From contig NC_091109.1 of the NCBI RefSeq assembly GCF_024713975.1, positions 20,987,760-21,051,759 on the forward strand: a stretch of DNA of 64,000 nucleotides, given 5' to 3'. The first letter of the stretch is position 1; each line of letters opens with the position of its first letter. Below are positions 121 to 63,859 of the stretch, piece after piece. A program made the translations under genes and the position numbers. Source of the DNA: Paralichthys olivaceus (Eukaryota > Chordata > Actinopteri > Pleuronectiformes > Paralichthyidae). Under the pieces are notes generated by a model. It did no database searches. It had not been told where the DNA came from and was given only the letters and a program-made list of their open reading frames with translations.

Positions 121-35486
<35,366 letters not shown>

Positions 35487-36992: not shown

Positions 36993-37170
36993 CCACCGGC
37001 GCTGACAACACGCTGGAGCTAATCTACCACTTGAGCTAATCGTTGAGAAAAGTGTGGTTTAAATTCCCCACCTGGAGCTAGCACGGAGGCTAAGTCAGCC
37101 GTTAGCATGTGTTAGCGTGTGTTGTCACTTGTCTTCCGTGTCCAGGTTTGTTTTGACTCCGGGCGTCTCG

Positions 37171-40100
37171 ATGGAGGTGCGGACCGCCAGGATGGAGCTG
37201 GAGGATGAGCCGCGTCTGATCCTGCGGAGGTTCGAAGCCGCCGTGAGAGTGATCAAGAGTTTACCCCCGGATGGTGAGTGCCAAGACGGCAGCGGTTCAT
37301 CTCCTCCACCACCGATCTCTGTTTATTATCGTCCGTCACCTACGATCACAACAACACGATTCTATTCCTCTGACCTACTTTGATTTTCACCTGCAGTGAG
37401 ATTCTTGTTCCTGCACACAGACGATGACAGGATTCATTTGTTGCACATACAAAGAAGGATTGTGTTTTTCTATCATAACACTTGAGAAAGTTGGATATTT
37501 ACTCTGAGTGCACAACTTATTCATCATGTGTCTAATAATATATAATAGAAACTAGTTAAAAGACAAGTTTATTATTGAACAACACGGACATGGCAAAGTG
37601 TAAAAGCAGCATCACAAAAAAGCTTTTTATAATACTAATAACAAAATGTGTGTGACTGAATGAACAGTTCTCAGTTTATTTAGACACATTTATTGAACTC
37701 TGACTCGTTTCTCTTCAGGCTTAAGTAATCCCCTCTGTAAAGCAGGTTATGTTGTGTTGATTTTGCTGTTTGTCTGTTTCTCAGCACAAATATTACTGAA
37801 CTGAAATTTTGAAGAGGATCCGGGTAAACATGCAGATCAGGGATTTTTCTTAACTCCCTTTAACATGATGACGTGTGGCGGTAACTCAAGAGGAGCTCTG
37901 TGCTCTCAAAGTGCACTTCCAGTTATTCTTACCAAAATAGGTTTTATAAAATAACATGGATAAGATAAAACTTTATTGATTCAAACACGTGGGACATCCA
38001 GTTGTTACAGCAGCAGGCAGCTCAGAGCGAGGTAGACAGGAGAACATAAATATAAATAAGGCAATAGATTCATAAATGAAAATAAATAAACAAAGTTTAC
38101 ACCACACGCCCTCAGGCCAGTTTAACAAGTTCAACCCGGAATTGAAACGCATGGTTTCTGACTGTAGTCAGGTGCAGAGCAACAGCTTGGTGTGCCTGAG
38201 ATCTCCTGCGATTTAAAAGGTTTAATCCACTTAACTCTCAGCGTAGCGTGCAGACACTTTCTTCCAGCAGTCTGCAACTCAATGCATCAGCATAGCATTC
38301 CCCTAGAAGCTTGACAGGCATGTAAGAGATTGATTATGTTGCACATGTTGCCGTTTATAACTGAAATTCCTGTTTTTCAGGTCCCTTCCAGCCGTCTAAT
38401 GACATGATGCTGAAGTTCTACAGTTATTATAAACAAGCAACCGTGGGCGTGTGCAGTACACCCCGGCCTGGCTTCTGGGACGCGGTTGGCAAAGCAAAAT
38501 GGTATCAATCAGTCAATGTGCTTCTTTTTTTTTCATGGTGTCACGTTGAATAATAGTTTTCCCTTAAGAGCGAGATGATGTGCACAAGTTGCACAGTCAT
38601 GGATCAAATTCTGGAGATTTCGCCTTGTGCACGTTGCGTAACATTTGGCTTTTTACCCACTTTGACCTCCCTGTGCACAACACGACAGAGACCCCCTCCG
38701 CTGGGTTTTCTGACCTGGCAATCCTCCACATATTCAGGCTCAGGTCGTGTTTGTTGATCTTTGGACTCTTTGACATACTTGGAATGCGACCTTGCACCCA
38801 CAAGGCTGGGTGGTTTTCCTCATGCTATCATTGTTTTGTTTTTTTGCAACTTTACAAGAGAAGTGTCCAATCTGTTGGGCAGAGCTCTATTCTCGTCTGT
38901 GAACTCTTTGACCCACAGTTAACAACTGGCACGCTTTCCAAAAATAACCTGACCTTGTTTACAAAGTGGAAAACTGGCACAAAACAAATTCAAATTGAAA
39001 CAGACTTTGCACCAAGCAGGACTTTTATTTTCAGGGTGAAAATCTCTTTGATAATAATAATTTGTATTTTCATTAAACAGGGACGCTTGGGATTCTCTTG
39101 GAAATATGTCAAAAGAGGAAGCAATGGTCGCCTATGTCGATGAAATGAAACTGGTTTGTTTTCCAACTTTCTCTTATAGACAATCTAATTTTATTTTACA
39201 CTGTTGACATGATCTTAAAGTTAAACCTTTCTTCATTTTGTTTCTGTGTTGGATGGGTAGATCCTGGAGGGCATGCCCATGACAGACGAGGTGGAGGAGC
39301 TCCTCCGTGTCCTCGGTCCGTTCTACGAGCTGGTTGAAGAGAAGAAAAAGATCACGCAGATTTCAGACCTGAGCACAGGTATGATCTTCTCTCGTTCACT
39401 TTGTCTGCGATTTCTGTGACAGCAAGTGGTGCTTAATCTTTTTTTAATTTGCCTCCTGTCATATGCTCAGCCCGTTTGACACTGTTTGCTAGGCAGCTGG
39501 AAGGCAAGTACACGACTCTGACAGTGCTCCAGTCTGGTGGTTTAGTTTTAGTACACGTGATGTTGTAGCTCAGATGCTTTTAGTGCTTATTTGCAGTCAT
39601 GTTACCCATTTGTAGTCAGCAGTACTGTTCAGCATCAGCTTGTTTGACTTTCAATCTGTGGTTCCTTAACCTCATGTCACCTCTGAACAGGTTGCTTTAA
39701 TTTGAAGGGTTATTGTCCTCTAGTTTTTCAGCCTCGTAAAAAGTTCCCTTGTGTTGCGCAGGGATTGGTACGATGCTGAATTCAATGCCATCGAAGAGCT
39801 TCGCAAAGAGCATCGTCAGAACCATGGAAATGAACGGCACTCTGGAGACTCGGCCTGCCAGGCTCAAACCAAAGCAGGTGAAGGAGAGGGCCGAGGAAGA
39901 AGAACAGGAGGAGGATGAGGATGAGGATGATGATGATGATGATGAGGAGGAGGAGGAGGAGGAGGATGACGACGATGATGATGAGGAGGAGGAGGAAGGA
40001 ATAAGGGAGGTTAGAAAAGGTAATAAAGTTATTTTTTAAAAACAACCTAGTTTCAAAGTGTGTCAGGATTAAATCTTTAACTCTGACTTTGCGGGTCGGC

Positions 40101-44369: not shown

Positions 44370-49344
<4,975 letters not shown>

Positions 49345-50043
49345 CGTGCAGCTCGTGTCCGGGCTGTGCGTCCTCCACAGACACTCACATCGCAGAAACA
49401 ACTGTCTCCGGTTTGTTTTGAAAATTTGAAAAATTTCCGCCCTTCGTCCGCGGGGGGGGTCCTCTGGCTGGGGCCAAATCCACTGCCTGTGCGCAAATCA
49501 TGACAGACGCCCGAAATATGAGACAAAAACAAAAGATATAGAAGTTATACTGTGGTTTTAAATCAACAATCGCATCATATTGATTTATAAAACAAAACAG
49601 GTGTCTGAATCGGAGCTTTTAACGATATTATTGATCAGGCAGTAAAGAACACCCATGGGTCGTCAGGTTTTATGATAACATTTATTTATTTCCCCACAGA
49701 ACAACAAACTACATTCACTGACATCATCCTTCTCTAATTCGTGTTTATGATTTTTAAACAAATTTTATAAATGCGTATTTTTTTTATTTTTTTTGTTCCT
49801 CGGGTGATGTAACGAACACGCCACTGTAACCCGCTCTGACGTCATTTTGTAGTCCACTTGACCTCGGACGCCGGAGGATCCATTTGCTGTTGTTAGCTAA
49901 GCTGCTGGAAGTTGAGTAAGAAGCAAAACAAAGGGGCGACGCTCCCGACAGTGTCCTCCATCTCTCCACGGCAGCCACAGAGGGCTCGTCCTGCTACATC
50001 CGCCCTGCACCTTCTTGTTTCCAGCCGCCGTTCGGTTAAAAAC
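49345..50043. promoter_or_regulatory. Shared divergent promoter region of mastl and yme1l1
   Basis: 699 bp between the two start codons. The mastl side (49345-49500) and the yme1l1 side (49830-50043) are fairly GC-rich; the middle (about 49530-49800) is AT-rich. No TATA box stands out at the spacing expected for either gene, which suits a bidirectional housekeeping promoter. The human pair is also head to head. Confidence 0.65.
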
Positions 50044-57037: not shown

Positions 57038-57045
57038 TATAAAGG
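57038..57045 (+). promoter_or_regulatory. TATA box of the PKS gene
   Basis: TATAAAGG, about 130 bp upstream of the PKS ATG and 61 bp upstream of the upstream ORF. It is the best TATA match in the interval. Confidence 0.5.
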
Positions 57046-57098: not shown

Positions 57099-57137
57099 AT
57101 GGAGAGGCTGAAAATTTCTCTTTGTCTTTTGGAATAA
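57099..57137 (+). CDS. Short upstream ORF in the PKS leader
   Basis: 12 codons (M-E-R-L-K-I-S-L-C-L-L-E) ending in TAA, 32 nt before the PKS ATG and out of frame with it. Its ATG has A at -3 and G at +4, a strong context, so it could reduce or regulate PKS translation. Whether the leader is unspliced here is unknown. Confidence 0.4.
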   Translation: MERLKISLCLLE

Positions 57138-57169: not shown

Positions 57170-60100
57170 ATGGACGACCCAGATGAGGAAATAGCTGTCG
57201 TTGGGATTGGGTGCAATTTCCCTGGAGGTATGACGTCATTATGCTGTTGCAAGGATTTATTTAGACATTTCTTATCTGTCTGAATCACTGGTATTGTGAT
57301 GTTTTTATTTCAGGCGAGGGGTTGGATAATTTCTGGAGGGTCCTGTTGGAAGGAAAGAACTGTGCAGCAGATATTCCAGCAGAAAGGTTCGACACCACGT
57401 TCTGGTTTGATGCAGACGACTGCAAACCCGGAAAGACACAAACAACCAGAGCAGCTCTGATAGAAGGGTAAGTGTTTTACTGATGAACAGATTCATCCTT
57501 AGATGTTTGGATTTTGACAGATCTGTCATTTGTATATTATTCCCAGATTTAACAAGTTTGATCACAAGTTTTTTGGCATCACTGAAGCAGAGAGTGATTT
57601 CATGGACCCTCAGCAGAAACTCCTCCTCCAGTGCACATACAGGGCATTAGAAGACGCAGGAATGGCTATGGAGAGCATCAGCGGAAGCAGAACTGGAGTT
57701 TACATCGGTGACTGCTATTATTCCATGAATCATTTTAAGCACAATCTTATAATACAGAAATTGTAACCGACTCAACTTTGATTGTGGTGTTGCAGGTCTA
57801 ATGAACAGGGATTACGAGATGCTCCGAAGTAATAATCCCAATGCAATCACCCACTATAACGGCACCGGGACGGCCATGAGTGTGGCTGCCAATAGAATTT
57901 CCTTCACCTTCAATCTCACTGGCCCTTCATTCGCCGTCGACAGTGCCTGTTCCTCATCTTTGGTGGCTTTACATTTAGCCTCGCAGGCTCTAAAGCAAGG
58001 TGCATGGTTTTATTTTCCCTACAAATGCCATTCCTTAAGTGGGTTTATCATGGAATTGCTTTTAAATATTCCATTTTCATTCTTTCTTTCAACCAGGAGA
58101 CTGTGAGATGGCTTTGTGTGGAGGTGTCAGCTGCATCATTGAGCCAAGAGTGTTTGTTGCTCTCACCAAGGCAAAGATGATCTCACCTGAGGGGACCAGC
58201 AAACCTTTCTCCAGTCGGGCAGACGGCTACGGCAGAGGTGAGGGCTGCGGGGTCGTTCTCCTGAAGCCTCTGAAAAATGTAAGAACATCTTTGTTTTTTT
58301 TGTTTTGTTGCAGTCATTTCATATCACATAGGGGATACTAGCTACTTTTCTAATGGTTTGACTTTATGTATAAAGGCTGTAAAAGACTGCAACAAAATCT
58401 GGGGCATCATCAGCAAAACAGCCGTCAACCAAGATGGACGCTCGGTCACTCCGATCACCAAACCCTCCATGACGCAGCAAGAGGAGCTGCTGCGAGGAAT
58501 CTACTCAGAGTCCGACCTTGCCAATGTTCAGTACATAGAGGCACATGGGACTGGAACCCCGGTTGGAGACCCAACAGAGGCAGGAAGCATCTCAAACGTC
58601 ATCGCTAAGGCCAAACCTCCTGGTTCAGAGACACTGCGGATTGGCTCGGTGAAGAGCAACATCGGACATACAGAATCTGCAGCTGGAGTGGCCGGACTCA
58701 TTAAGGTTCTCCTAATGATGAAGCACGAGACCATTGTTCCCTCCGTTTTCTACTCTGAAAACAGTTCAAGTATAGATGTCAAAGCTCTGAATGTTAATAT
58801 TCCATCTAAAGCTGAGAGGTGGGAGACAAATGGGTCGTTACAGAGAGTAGCTGGGATCAATAGCTTTGGGTTTGGAGGCACAAATGCACATGCGATTTTA
58901 AGGGAGTATGGAAAGACCACTGTTCCCAGACAGATCACAAAAGGTTGTCCGAAACTCTTTGTGATATCTGCAGCCACTGAAAAATCACTGATCCTAACAA
59001 TCGCTGACACCCATCAGAGGCTTAGCAGTGCTCATGCAGTTGATTTGCAGGAGTTGTCTTATACCTCAGCGTGTGGAAGGAGTCATGGCAGACACAAATA
59101 TAAGAAAGCCTTCCTCACAACTTCCCTCTCAGATTTACAACACAAGCTGACATCTGCACTCAAATCAAAGGTTGAGTCAACAAAGTCCGACATCCAGGTT
59201 GTGTTTGTGTTTTGTGGAAATGGCGTTACCTACAGGGGCATGTGCCGGCAGCTCATGAGAGAGGTTCCTGTTTTCAGAGACAAGGTCAGAGAAGTTGAAA
59301 TTCTCTTCCAGAGTCATAAAAGCTTAAGCATCAGTCAATGGCTCACTGGTGAATATGATAATGATGATTTCAGAAAACCCGATTTTGCCCAACCTGTTCT
59401 TTTTGCACTCCAGATTGGCATTGCCACTCTCCTTAAGCACTGGGGCGTCAAACCTGATGCTGTGCTTGGACACTCTGTTGGAGAGGTCGCTGCAGCTCAC
59501 TGCTCCGGACTCTTGTCTCTTGAAGATGCTGTGAAAGTGTTGTACCACCGCAGTTCTCTTCAGAGCAAGGTCACAGGAGGGAAAATGCTCGTAGTCAGTA
59601 ATGTGGCTGTAGAAAAGGTTTTAGAAATGCTTGACGTCTTCTCTGGCAAAATTTCTGTTGCAGCTGTCAACAGCCCTCGGTCCTGCACACTGTCGGGGGA
59701 TTCGGACACGATAAACATCCTCCATGAAAGGCTGAAGACTATGTTTACAGATAAAAACCTCTTCCTCCATTTCTTGGATGTCCCGGCGGCATATCATAGC
59801 CATATGATGGATCCTATATTAGAAGACATTGAGAGAAGCATAGATCATTTAGATGCCAATAGCATGGAATGCAAACTGTTTTCGACAGTGACTGCAGACA
59901 GGTGTTCAGGAGGTGACTTCTGCACTGGCAGGTACTGGGCAAAGAACATCCGTGAGCCTGTTTTATTTGAACAAACGCTGCATGCTGCTGCTAAAGACAA
60001 GCAGACAAGGAGAAACATGGTCTTTGTGGAGATTGGACCTCGTAGGGCTCTTCAGAGAAACATATGTGAGGCTCTGGGAAATGACACCATAGTTCTTTCT

Positions 60101-63100
60101 TCTGTCCATCCAGAGAAAGATTACGCCACAATCTTGTCTACCGTGGCAAAAGTATTTGAACTGGGCCTTAACGTGGACTGGCATGAAGTCTACAGAGGTT
60201 ATGAAACATTGCCCACAACTCTTCCAATCTATCAGTTCGACTGCTTAAAGAAAGATATGAATTTTGAAGAAGTGAGAAAGGGGAATGAATCATCAGCTTT
60301 TTCTCCACATCCACTCATATCCAAAATAAAGCTGGATAACAAACAGTACGTGTGCAACATCTCACTGGAGAGTGCACCTTATCTGTGGGAGCATAAGAAC
60401 AACGGGGTTTCCATTGTACCAGGTGCAGTTTATGTTGAACTAGCTTATGCCTCTGTGATGGCAAGCTTAAACCCAAAGACACCAGCTTCTCTGCTCCAGC
60501 TCAGTGTCAGATTTGAGAGTCTGTTTACACTCAGCTCAAACTGCCATCAGTTGAAAGTAATACTTGAGCATGTGGATAATGAGGCAACTTTTAAAATACA
60601 GTCTGCTGTTGCAACACATGCCTCTGGGACATACATGAGTGCAAGTAGCCAACCACTCTTAGAGGAACCCAGAATTAGTCTCAACTTGATCTATCAACGG
60701 TGCAGATTGGTTATGAAGAAAAAAGAGATTTATTCAATTCTCTCTCAAGCAGGATTTGAATACGGCTTTGTCTTCAAACAGCTCGATGATGTGCATTTTG
60801 GGGATGAATTTAAAGAAGCTGTGACAACAATTCAAGTCCCCGTAGAACTTCTGAAACACCTTCACGACTATTTCATCCACCCTGTGTTACTGGACTATTT
60901 CCTCCAGATGACTGCAGTGGTAGCTATTGGACGACTAACAGCCAAGCAGGGATTCCCCTCAGCTATAGGCTGTGTCACTATTTCAGCTCCACTACAAGAG
61001 AGAATGGTCATGTATTTACGAGCGACTCAAGAAACCCCAGACTTCCTTGAAGTGTGTGGTTCCTTTTGCACCACTGAGGGGGGAGTACTTGTGGAACTCA
61101 AGAAAGTCAAGATCTCACTTTTGGGAGATTGCTCAAATGTTCTTCAGTCGCTGTTCTTTCACAATGAAATAATTACAATCCACGACAAGCCAGATTCTCA
61201 AAGTTGTAAAATAAAAGCACTAGTTTTTGAAGACAAACTCTGCATTACCAAAAGACTTCGGCCGTACTTACTCCCAGAGTCTGTCATTGTGAAGGTCAGA
61301 GACAACTGGAGGTCAAACCAACTTCGAGATGTTGTGTTTCACTCACTTAACGCTGATATGGACTTAGAAAATGTTCTCTTTATTTGGGGTGTGGAGAACC
61401 TCAGTCAGTTGTCACCTGAGCAGACGTTGGAGGCCTTGGTTACTTGCTGTGAGCAATTTCGCCAGATTTTATTAGCCTTAAAAGAGAAAAGACCATCTTG
61501 CACAGTCCACGTGATAACCTACAGGTCAACAGAAATGACTGTGGACCATGTCAGTCCAGGATTTGTTCTGTCTGGTATGACAAGGGCTTGTGCCGCAGAG
61601 ATGGAGAGTCCGTCTTTTCAGCTGATTGACCTCGCTTCTGTGACAAGTGAAGACGTTCAAATGCTGGTTCATGTAATCAACACCTGCAAACAACAAGAGG
61701 TCATGATCAGCAAAGGGCAGGCATCAGCAACGAGAATAGCACGCACCCCACTGAAGTACGAGTCTTTATGTGAAGGTGATGTGCAGTCAGTGTATCTGAG
61801 CGACTTTGTACTGCAGACATCTGACTTATACAGAATGGTTTGCTTGTCTGTCAGTCCCTGCGACACAAACGTAAAACCTCTCCAAGAGACGTCAGTTGAG
61901 ATCCAGCTCACCAACGGATGCGTCCATTCGTCTGATTACTTTCCTGTCACCACACCGCTTTTAAATTTCGGCAAGACGATGTATTGGGATCAACACACCT
62001 TGCAGAATCACAGACTTCTGCTTTTAGATTTTAGTGGCATTGTCACAGCCGTTGGGAAAGATGTTCAAAACGTGAGAGTGGGAGATCACATTGCTTCATG
62101 TTACCCAATTCCAGCCACGGGTAAGATGAGAGTTCCTGAAGCTGTGTGCTACAGTACAAAGAGGCTCCCATTTCTGAAAGAGACTCCATGTGTGTCTTAC
62201 TTCATACTGGCATGGCAGATCCTGCAGAGGATGCTGCCTAAAGTAAAACAGCAACACAGAAAGCTGACCATTGTCTCCTCTAACCTCGCCTCTGCTCTGA
62301 TTAAAGTTTTAGCTCTGACAGCAAACCGCTCAGGCTGGAACGTTTCCTCGAGGCCACATTTCAGAAGCACACCTTCACATTTTGATCAGAGTCATGCATT
62401 TGTGTTTCTGCCTCCATTTGATGAATCTTGGCAGGAAATCCAATACAGACGTGACCTCGAGAGACACGTTATCTTTGTATGTAGCAGCCACATGTCATCC
62501 TCACTCTCTGCAAACATGTTTGCATCAAAGAGTGAAAACATGCACATACATAAACTTGATGTGGCTGAAGTTCTCCAGAGAGCCACTCTGCAGGGTCAGA
62601 GCAGGGATTTCTTTAATTGGCTACAGTTATTAGGCTTTGATATAACATCCCTACCTTTGAAAAGAGAGATATTTCAATCATCAAGAACAAAAGAGCCTAA
62701 GATCGAATCTTATTTCACTGCAAAAACAGTTCAGCAGGTGGTTTTCGATAATGGAGGTTCTCATTGTCCAGTGTCTGATGTCCCTGTGCTCACCAGGCCT
62801 GCACGACTATTTCAACAAACCTGTGTTTATATTGTAACTGGAGGCCTTTCTGGTTTGGGAGTTGAGACTGTGAAGTTCATCGCCCATAATGGTGGCGGTT
62901 GTATTGCAACACTGTCCAGGAGAGTTCCAACAAATGAGACGCAGTTTGAAATGGAACTCCTCAAGAGAAGATATGGTGTTCGTGTCATTCATGTCCAGTG
63001 TGATGTTTCTGTGTTGACGCAGGTCGTGGATGCGATCTCAGAAATTAAACAAAGATTCTCTCCTCGTCCAATCAAAGGAGTGTTTCACAGTGCTGCTGTA

Positions 63101-63859
63101 TTACACGACGCACTGATTGAAAACCTTGATGAGTCTCTCTTCCGAAAAGTTCTGCAGCCCAAAGTGAGCGGGGCTCTAAATCTTCACTGTGCAACACTTC
63201 ACAACAAACTTGATTACTTTGTGTGCTACTCTTCAATCTCGTCATTCATTGGCAACGCCTCCCAGTGTAACTACGCAGCAGCCAATTCTTTCCTGGACGT
63301 ATTCTGTCACTACCGGAGAAACCTTGGACTTGCTGGACAGTCCATCAACTGGGGGCCTTTGAATCTTGGTCTCTTGCTGAACAGAGACCATTTCCAGAAG
63401 TTCCTAGAGACAAAAGGGATGATGATCTTGAGCGTGTGCGAGATTCACGAAGCACTTGAAAAGTGTCTGTTGATGAACAAACCTCAACAAGTCATCTGCA
63501 AGTTCAACTTCAAAAACCTTAACATTCACGTACTTTCACAAAATTCATCTCTCAGAGAACGACTGTCAGCTTTAGTGGGAATGGAGCTTAAAGACGATAT
63601 AAGCAGTGAACCCAGAGTTCATCATTTGCATTCCACAAATGAAAGTGTGAGAAAAATTGTCAGTGACATAAGCAGCGTTAGTGTAGATGAGCTGGATGAT
63701 GAGTCGGCTCTGTGTGCTCTGGGTATTGACTCAATGTTGGCCATGACTCTTCAAAACAAGATTTTCCAGGAGACAGGAGTGAATGTACCTTTAGTAAGAA
63801 TACTGGACCCGAACAGTACACTGGTCACTTTAGCAACTATCATAATGAATAATGGATAA
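57170..63859 (+). CDS. pks1: Animal iterative type I polyketide synthase, otolith-associated family; 6 coding exons
   Basis: A multidomain synthase that builds a polyketide on a tethered carrier. Teleost members of this family are reported to be needed for otolith formation, and bird relatives for pigment; the product here cannot be read from sequence. Exons: 57170-57227, 57314-57467, 57547-57707, 57796-57999, 58097-58278, 58376-63859; 2080 aa. Seen: ketosynthase with Cys176 (VDSACSSS), His310 (EAHGTGT) and His351 (KSNIGHTE); acyltransferase with Ser620 (GHSVGE) and AYHSHMMDP; dehydratase with His926 ([11 protein letters not shown]) and Asp1093 (LLDYFLQ); a non-catalytic core around 1290-1400; an ER-like part ([13 protein letters not shown], about 1450-1620); ketoreductase with TGGLSGLG (from 1741) and Tyr1886 (YAAAN); ACP with Ser2039 (GIDSML). 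The chain ends about 40 aa after that Ser, with no thioesterase. No methyltransferase signature was found. The ATG at 57170 has a good context and leads into the KS start [14 protein letters not shown]. The paralogue number is uncertain. Confidence 0.94.

Follow-up and report, generated by a model that had tools for sequence, protein, structure and literature searches.

The pks1 locus and its inverted neighbour

The 64,000-nucleotide stretch of Paralichthys olivaceus DNA analysed here (C17:20987760-21051759 in the assembly, hereafter the window) carries pks1, a gene for a type I polyketide synthase (PKS). It occupies 57170..63859 on the plus strand from start to stop codon. The splice model consists of six exons (57170-57227, 57314-57467, 57547-57707, 57796-57999, 58097-58278 and 58376-63859) with GT-AG borders at all five introns, and it encodes 2080 codons with no internal stops. 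The record 'probable polyketide synthase 1 [Paralichthys olivaceus]' in nr is of equal length and differs from this protein at 10 of 2080 residues; the splice model thus agrees with an independent prediction. The gene is already known in predicted form, with a near-identical protein catalogued in nr. A preliminary description of this DNA had proposed an intact type I PKS of 2080 aa, which was borne out by both the splice model and the nr record.

The domain architecture of pks1 is ketosynthase (KS), acyltransferase (AT), dehydratase (DH), a relic of an enoylreductase (ER), ketoreductase (KR) and acyl carrier protein (ACP). In the Pfam search, KS, AT, DH, KR and ACP all scored above the cut-off, and no thioesterase family was found at E <= 0.1. 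The following domains were placed on the plus strand: KS with its C-terminal extension at residues 1-430, in exons 1-6 (57170..58904; Cys176, His310, His351); AT at residues 529-823 (59201..60085; Ser620, Arg645); DH at 898-1166 (60308..61114; His926, Asp1093); KR at 1737-1915 (62825..63361; Ser1873, Tyr1886, Asn1890 and the cofactor motif GGLSGLG); and ACP at 2010-2074 (63644..63838; Ser2039). The ER relic, recognised from structure matches and motif inspection, covers residues 1430-1722 (61904..62782, plus strand). The catalytic residues quoted in the preliminary description (Cys176, His310, His351, Ser620, His926, Asp1093, Tyr1886 and Ser2039) were all found in place. Its word 'complete' holds for the gene, whereas its domain list omitted the ER relic. 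Among teleost pks1 rows, Cys176 is present in 76 of 77, with a gap in the other, and His310 and His351 in 77 of 77; across 108 full-length homologues, nine active-site positions are each conserved in 106 to 108.

A KS search of the 588-Mb assembly detected pks1, a second PKS gene on the opposite strand of C17, and single loci on C21 and C20, which by their sequences are probably FASN and OXSM. The second PKS gene, pks2/fasn2, lies outside the window (C17:21060828-21052836, minus strand) and was spliced by hand into six exons coding for 2097 aa. It is arranged tail-to-tail with pks1, with a stop-to-stop distance of 1217 bp. It matches LOC109639608 of P. olivaceus in nr, from which it differs in 12 alignment columns, and proteins named fasn2 or 'Fatty acid synthase 2'. 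The two genes have the same domain order and near-equal exon lengths (58-154-161-204/207-182) but lie on different strands and share only 55% protein identity and 61.3% identity across aligned coding DNA. Their third codon positions are 39% identical and saturated outside one tract of the KS. In this gene-conversion tract of 363 nt (58397..58759, plus strand; codons 261-381), 362 of 363 bases equal those of pks2. The sole mismatch is at 58444, and the longest exact run has 315 nt (58445-58759). Both catalytic KS histidines, His310 and His351, lie inside it. The pks genes of medaka and fugu bear consecutive accession numbers (PMC4604110).

The family placement of pks1 was determined with the best 120 of 7986 homologues, of which the 116 named ones all seem to come from fishes; a 2051-aa Oryzias protein among these 120 is 66% identical over the full length. 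In three regions outside the exchanged stretch (77 species), the window gene groups with pks1 and not with pks2. It also has the features of the teleost group, namely six exons, about 2050-2090 aa and intact KS, AT, DH, KR and ACP sites. We conclude that it belongs to the teleost pks1 group and is the orthologue of zebrafish pks1 and medaka OlPKS, which has 2051 aa and six exons (PMC4604110).

The relation to FASN was analysed on the 252 KS columns covered by flounder FASN, of which 135 lie outside the exchanged stretch. On the 252 columns, the pks1 KS shares 43.7% identity with FASN and 80.6% with pks2; on the 135, its identity to pks2 is 67.4%. The pks1 KS did not fall within FASN; pks1 and pks2 stand apart from it with a support of 0.92 on 252 columns and 0.47 on 135. 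Because the KS groups apart, no thioesterase was detected and the NADPH loop of the ER is lost, identification of pks1 as FASN was ruled out. The KS phylogeny suggested in the preliminary description as a check therefore separates pks1 from FASN, yet within teleosts it cannot be relied on, since the paralogues have exchanged the second KS half. Compared with solved structures, residues 254-2080 (from the second half of the KS onward) were nearest to mycobacterial MAS (362.7 bits) and other PKSs; EcPKS1, an animal FAS-like PKS (AFPK), scored 255.8 and pig FAS 252.6, which speaks for a PKS. PMC10764717 reports no vertebrate AFPK.

Enoylreductase relic and probable otolith role

Working ERs carry a glycine-rich NADPH-binding loop motif. 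Between DH and KR, pks1 and pks2 alike contain an ER-like fold without this loop. Structure matches of residues 1430-1722 of pks1 recovered the medium-chain reductase (ER) fold, with LovC among the PDB matches, and a model of residues 1170-1975 matched the FASN modifying region, among others. The model of the ER region had a mean pLDDT of 66.5, its residues 1-76 being mostly under 50, and Foldseek alone gave no match for it at E <= 0.001. A Pfam trace of ADH_N was found at residues 1466-1496 (E=0.0059, below the cut-off). Inspection against the motif of working ERs indicated that the glycine-rich loop is lost from residues 1430-1722, and the enzyme has probably lost its ER activity. The pks1 record of Lepidogalaxias lacks much of the relic, which may reflect an erroneous gene model or a genuine absence of that domain.

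Since the NADPH loop is lost, an unsaturated (polyene) chain is predicted. The preliminary description had called the control of reduction poorly defined. The reduction level is now more predictable. As of 2024, the otolith polyketide made by OlPKS was still described as unknown (PMC10764717). It is conceivable that a trans-acting enoylreductase serves the relic and saturates the product in part or in full, as LovC is among the structural matches of this region. There is a precedent in LovB, whose ER is inactive and is served in trans by LovC. Such a partner is, in our judgement, improbable, because the parrot MuPKS, the sole vertebrate relative with a known product, makes polyenes (PMC6334511, PMC10764717), and OlPKS expressed alone in Aspergillus gave an active extract, though this host has reductases of its own (PMC4604110). 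Under the preferred prediction of an unsaturated chain, the otolith polyketide can be sought among unsaturated chains, given that both fish synthases have lost the loop; a mass-spectrometry search targeted at polyene UV bands and C14-C20 acids is therefore sensible.

The link of the teleost family to otoliths, drawn in the preliminary description, agrees with published work; expression in the otic vesicle and a requirement for otolith nucleation have been reported for medaka and zebrafish pks1. Loss of OlPKS in medaka abolishes otolith nucleation. Otoliths are rescued by wild-type cells anywhere in the medaka otic vesicle and by lipophilic extracts of OlPKS-expressing Aspergillus oryzae. No embryo formed otoliths when the rescue mRNA carried a single substitution in the active site of KS, DH, KR or ACP, and an AT-site change allowed a partial rescue (2% of 57); OlPKS thus requires all five of these domains (PMC4604110). 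One might suppose that in flounder this role is held by pks2, or shared, rather than belonging to pks1 alone, given that both genes are complete and that part of the pks1 KS is most likely derived from pks2. We consider this quite unlikely, because the window gene sorts with pks1 outside the exchanged stretch, the other two pks genes of medaka are silent in embryonic stages and adult tissues (PMC4604110), and zebrafish pks1 mutants are reported to have no otoliths.

Exchange of the second half of the ketosynthase

In 10,000 codon shuffles of the flounder pair, the identical run reached at most 36 nt, and outside the tract no real run in the coding sequence is longer than 25 nt. Fourfold-degenerate third positions are 98.5% identical inside the tract (68 codons) and 36.8% outside (462 codons). 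Both borders of the tract lie within exon 6, and the flanks are clearly distinct. For residues 261-382 of pks1 the nearest row is its own pks2, followed by pks2 of other fishes in seven of the seven rows listed, while for residues 1-199, 200-253 and 431-900 the eight nearest listed rows are all pks1. As the pks1 tract is nearest to the pks2 proteins of other fishes, pks2 is most likely the donor, and the conversion most likely ran from pks2 to pks1. The medaka ha deletion removes OlPKS residues 279-281 (PMC4604110); counting to the KPS motif, these would correspond to flounder residues 282-284, inside the tract. No published account of pks1/pks2 gene conversion was found among the papers listed by searches of the open-licence literature.

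A separate observation concerns codons 200-253 in exon 5, where the paralogues are unusually alike (third-position identity 0.65-0.80 in the bins covering 200-259), perhaps through older exchanges. Intron 5 differs in length between the paralogues (97 vs 819 bp).

The recurrence of the exchange was surveyed on the proteins of 77 teleost pks1/pks2 pairs. Residues 1-199 (151 rows), 384-900 (154 rows) and 1720-2000 (154 rows) each gave a tree that divides into pks1 and pks2 with a single label change, and in none of the three were paralogues of one species sisters. For residues 200-383 (154 rows), the tree required 13 label changes, and paralogues of the same species were sisters in 10 species with a local support of 0.94-0.99. 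Flounder is not among these ten, and two of them are sticklebacks, so the independent events may number fewer than 10. For residues 254-383, 14 of 77 species have a pks1 that resembles the pks2 of the same fish more than the pks1 of any other, and in 9 this holds in both directions. The corresponding counts are 0/76 for residues 1-199, 1/76 for 200-253, 1/77 for 384-430, 0/77 for AT and 0/77 for 431-2080. Own-species pairing exceeded shuffled pairing in residues 254-383 (0.851 vs 0.814) and 200-253 (0.910 vs 0.901), a difference reached by 0 of 2000 shuffles in either case, and no excess was found in residues 1-199 (reached by 1154 of 2000). These protein data suggest that conversion took place in other fishes as well, and such a recurrent, KS-centred exchange with the neighbouring synthase may be the part that specialists do not expect.

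Outside the KS, residues 781-800 at the end of AT show an own-species excess of 0.034, the largest of the 92 outside bins and one reached by 16 of 2000 shuffles. It is either a minor second exchange or chance.

Strong purifying selection on the catalytic core could also keep a KS stretch identical, without gene conversion. The stretch is indeed well conserved and holds both catalytic histidines, and when 24 of the 77 species were put to an approximately unbiased (AU) test, a single pks1 clade for residues 254-383 was not rejected at the 0.05 level (log-likelihood 112.9 lower, p 0.096). In these 24 species the tree of 254-383 again shows 13 label changes, and residues 1-199 give a pks1 clade with a support of 100. 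Selection on the protein is nevertheless very unlikely to account for the tract, since synonymous sites are identical too, no identical run elsewhere exceeds 25 nt, the seven rows next to the pks1 tract after its own paralogue are pks2 of other fishes, and the own-species pairing in 254-383 beats all 2000 shuffles with no excess in residues 1-199. That one copy was laid into both genes during assembly is just as hard to credit: the DNA-level comparison rests on one assembly, but the nr proteins, which come from another individual or assembly to judge by their differences elsewhere (10 residues in pks1, 12 columns in pks2), show 0 differences inside the tract, the flanks on both sides are clearly distinct within the same exon, and paralogues group by species in ten other fishes.

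Taken together, these results make it fairly probable that flounder pks1 encodes an iterative type I PKS which makes the polyene that starts the otolith, and whose second KS half has been repeatedly exchanged with pks2. In the proposed mechanism, AT would load acetyl and malonyl units onto ACP, and KS would condense them iteratively, each keto group being reduced by KR and then dehydrated by DH. With the NADPH site of the ER gone, double bonds would stay in the chain. As no thioesterase is present, the chain would be handed to a partner in trans or hydrolysed, and the likely product would be a polyene acid with a linear chain, or a derivative of it. It would leave the otic epithelium and enter the otic vesicle, where deposition of calcium carbonate would start. 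Gene conversion with pks2/fasn2 would repeatedly exchange the second half of the KS, giving a common condensing core while the other domains diverge. Several points weigh against this proposal. Flounder pks1 is known here from DNA and predicted proteins. A faint own-species excess also exists in residues 431-2080 (0.4807 vs 0.4790, reached by 0 of 2000 shuffles), and the signal is not wholly confined to the KS. For the other fishes, where the comparison is one of proteins, the AU test given above did not reject a single pks1 clade. OlPKS was given as KS-AT-DH-KR-ACP, without ER, in Hojo 2015, the main text of which does not contain the word 'enoyl', and its product escaped detection by high-performance liquid chromatography (PMC4604110). 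The authors of the duck study left a trans-acting ER possible, and a polyene is not forced (PMC6334511).

More speculatively, and with rather low odds, pks1 and its inverted neighbour may be kept as a coupled pair in which recurrent, KS-limited conversion renews a common condensing core. If so, both enzymes would follow the same chain-making rule while their other domains and sites of expression diverge, a domain-wise concerted evolution of vertebrate megasynthases. The two products would then be variants of one polyene, for biomineralization and elsewhere.

Fish PKS trees built on the KS can mix paralogues through the exchange of its second half, and annotators are better served by residues 1-199 or by the part from AT to ACP. 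Should it be confirmed in the DNA of other fishes, the exchange would form an unusually clear natural series in which two vertebrate megasynthases swap domains.

Genomic surroundings and related systems

The gene upstream of pks1 encodes a protease of the i-AAA/FtsH type, with 'ATPase domain of i-AAA protease' as its best match in the PDB and Peptidase_M41 in Pfam. It agrees with the yme1l1 neighbour of the preliminary description, and we take it to be this gene. Further upstream, pieces of open reading frames match the Greatwall kinase (49105-49497, minus strand), presumably mastl, and the Abl interactor (35187-35486, minus strand), presumably abi1. A piece at 37063-37380 (plus strand), ACBD5-like by eye, gave 0 Pfam and 0 PDB matches. 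The putative promoter claimed earlier corresponds to a TATA-like motif read by eye 5' of the start codon (57038..57044, plus strand). Between this motif and the start codon, an upstream open reading frame of 12 codons (57099-57137, ATG to TAA, also by eye) is a possible translational brake on pks1. Overall, the preliminary interpretation was right about an otolith-linked type I PKS distinct from FASN and missed the second PKS, the ER relic and the exchange.

The closest known systems are medaka OlPKS and zebrafish pks1 (wu:fc01d11), with which flounder pks1 shares the six exons (OlPKS), the KS-AT-DH-KR-ACP order, the lack of a thioesterase and the catalytic residues; part of the flounder KS, in contrast, is most likely pks2-derived. 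From KS to ACP the domains of FASN follow the order seen in pks1, but pks1 differs from FASN in having neither a thioesterase match nor the NADPH loop of the ER. By description, budgerigar MuPKS and duck ApPKS are similar to pks1 in domain order, in an ER thought to be inactive and in the lack of a thioesterase, and the product of MuPKS is the feather polyenes (PMC6334511). The ER relic of pks1 extends the proposal made for bird PKSs to fishes. Sequence exchange involving PKS genes is also known from bacterial assembly lines, where gene conversion is associated with GRINS. These elements are bacterial and have GC and TA skews above 25% (PMC10394414), whereas the fish tract (TA skew -0.18, GC skew -0.05) lies between two inverted vertebrate genes.
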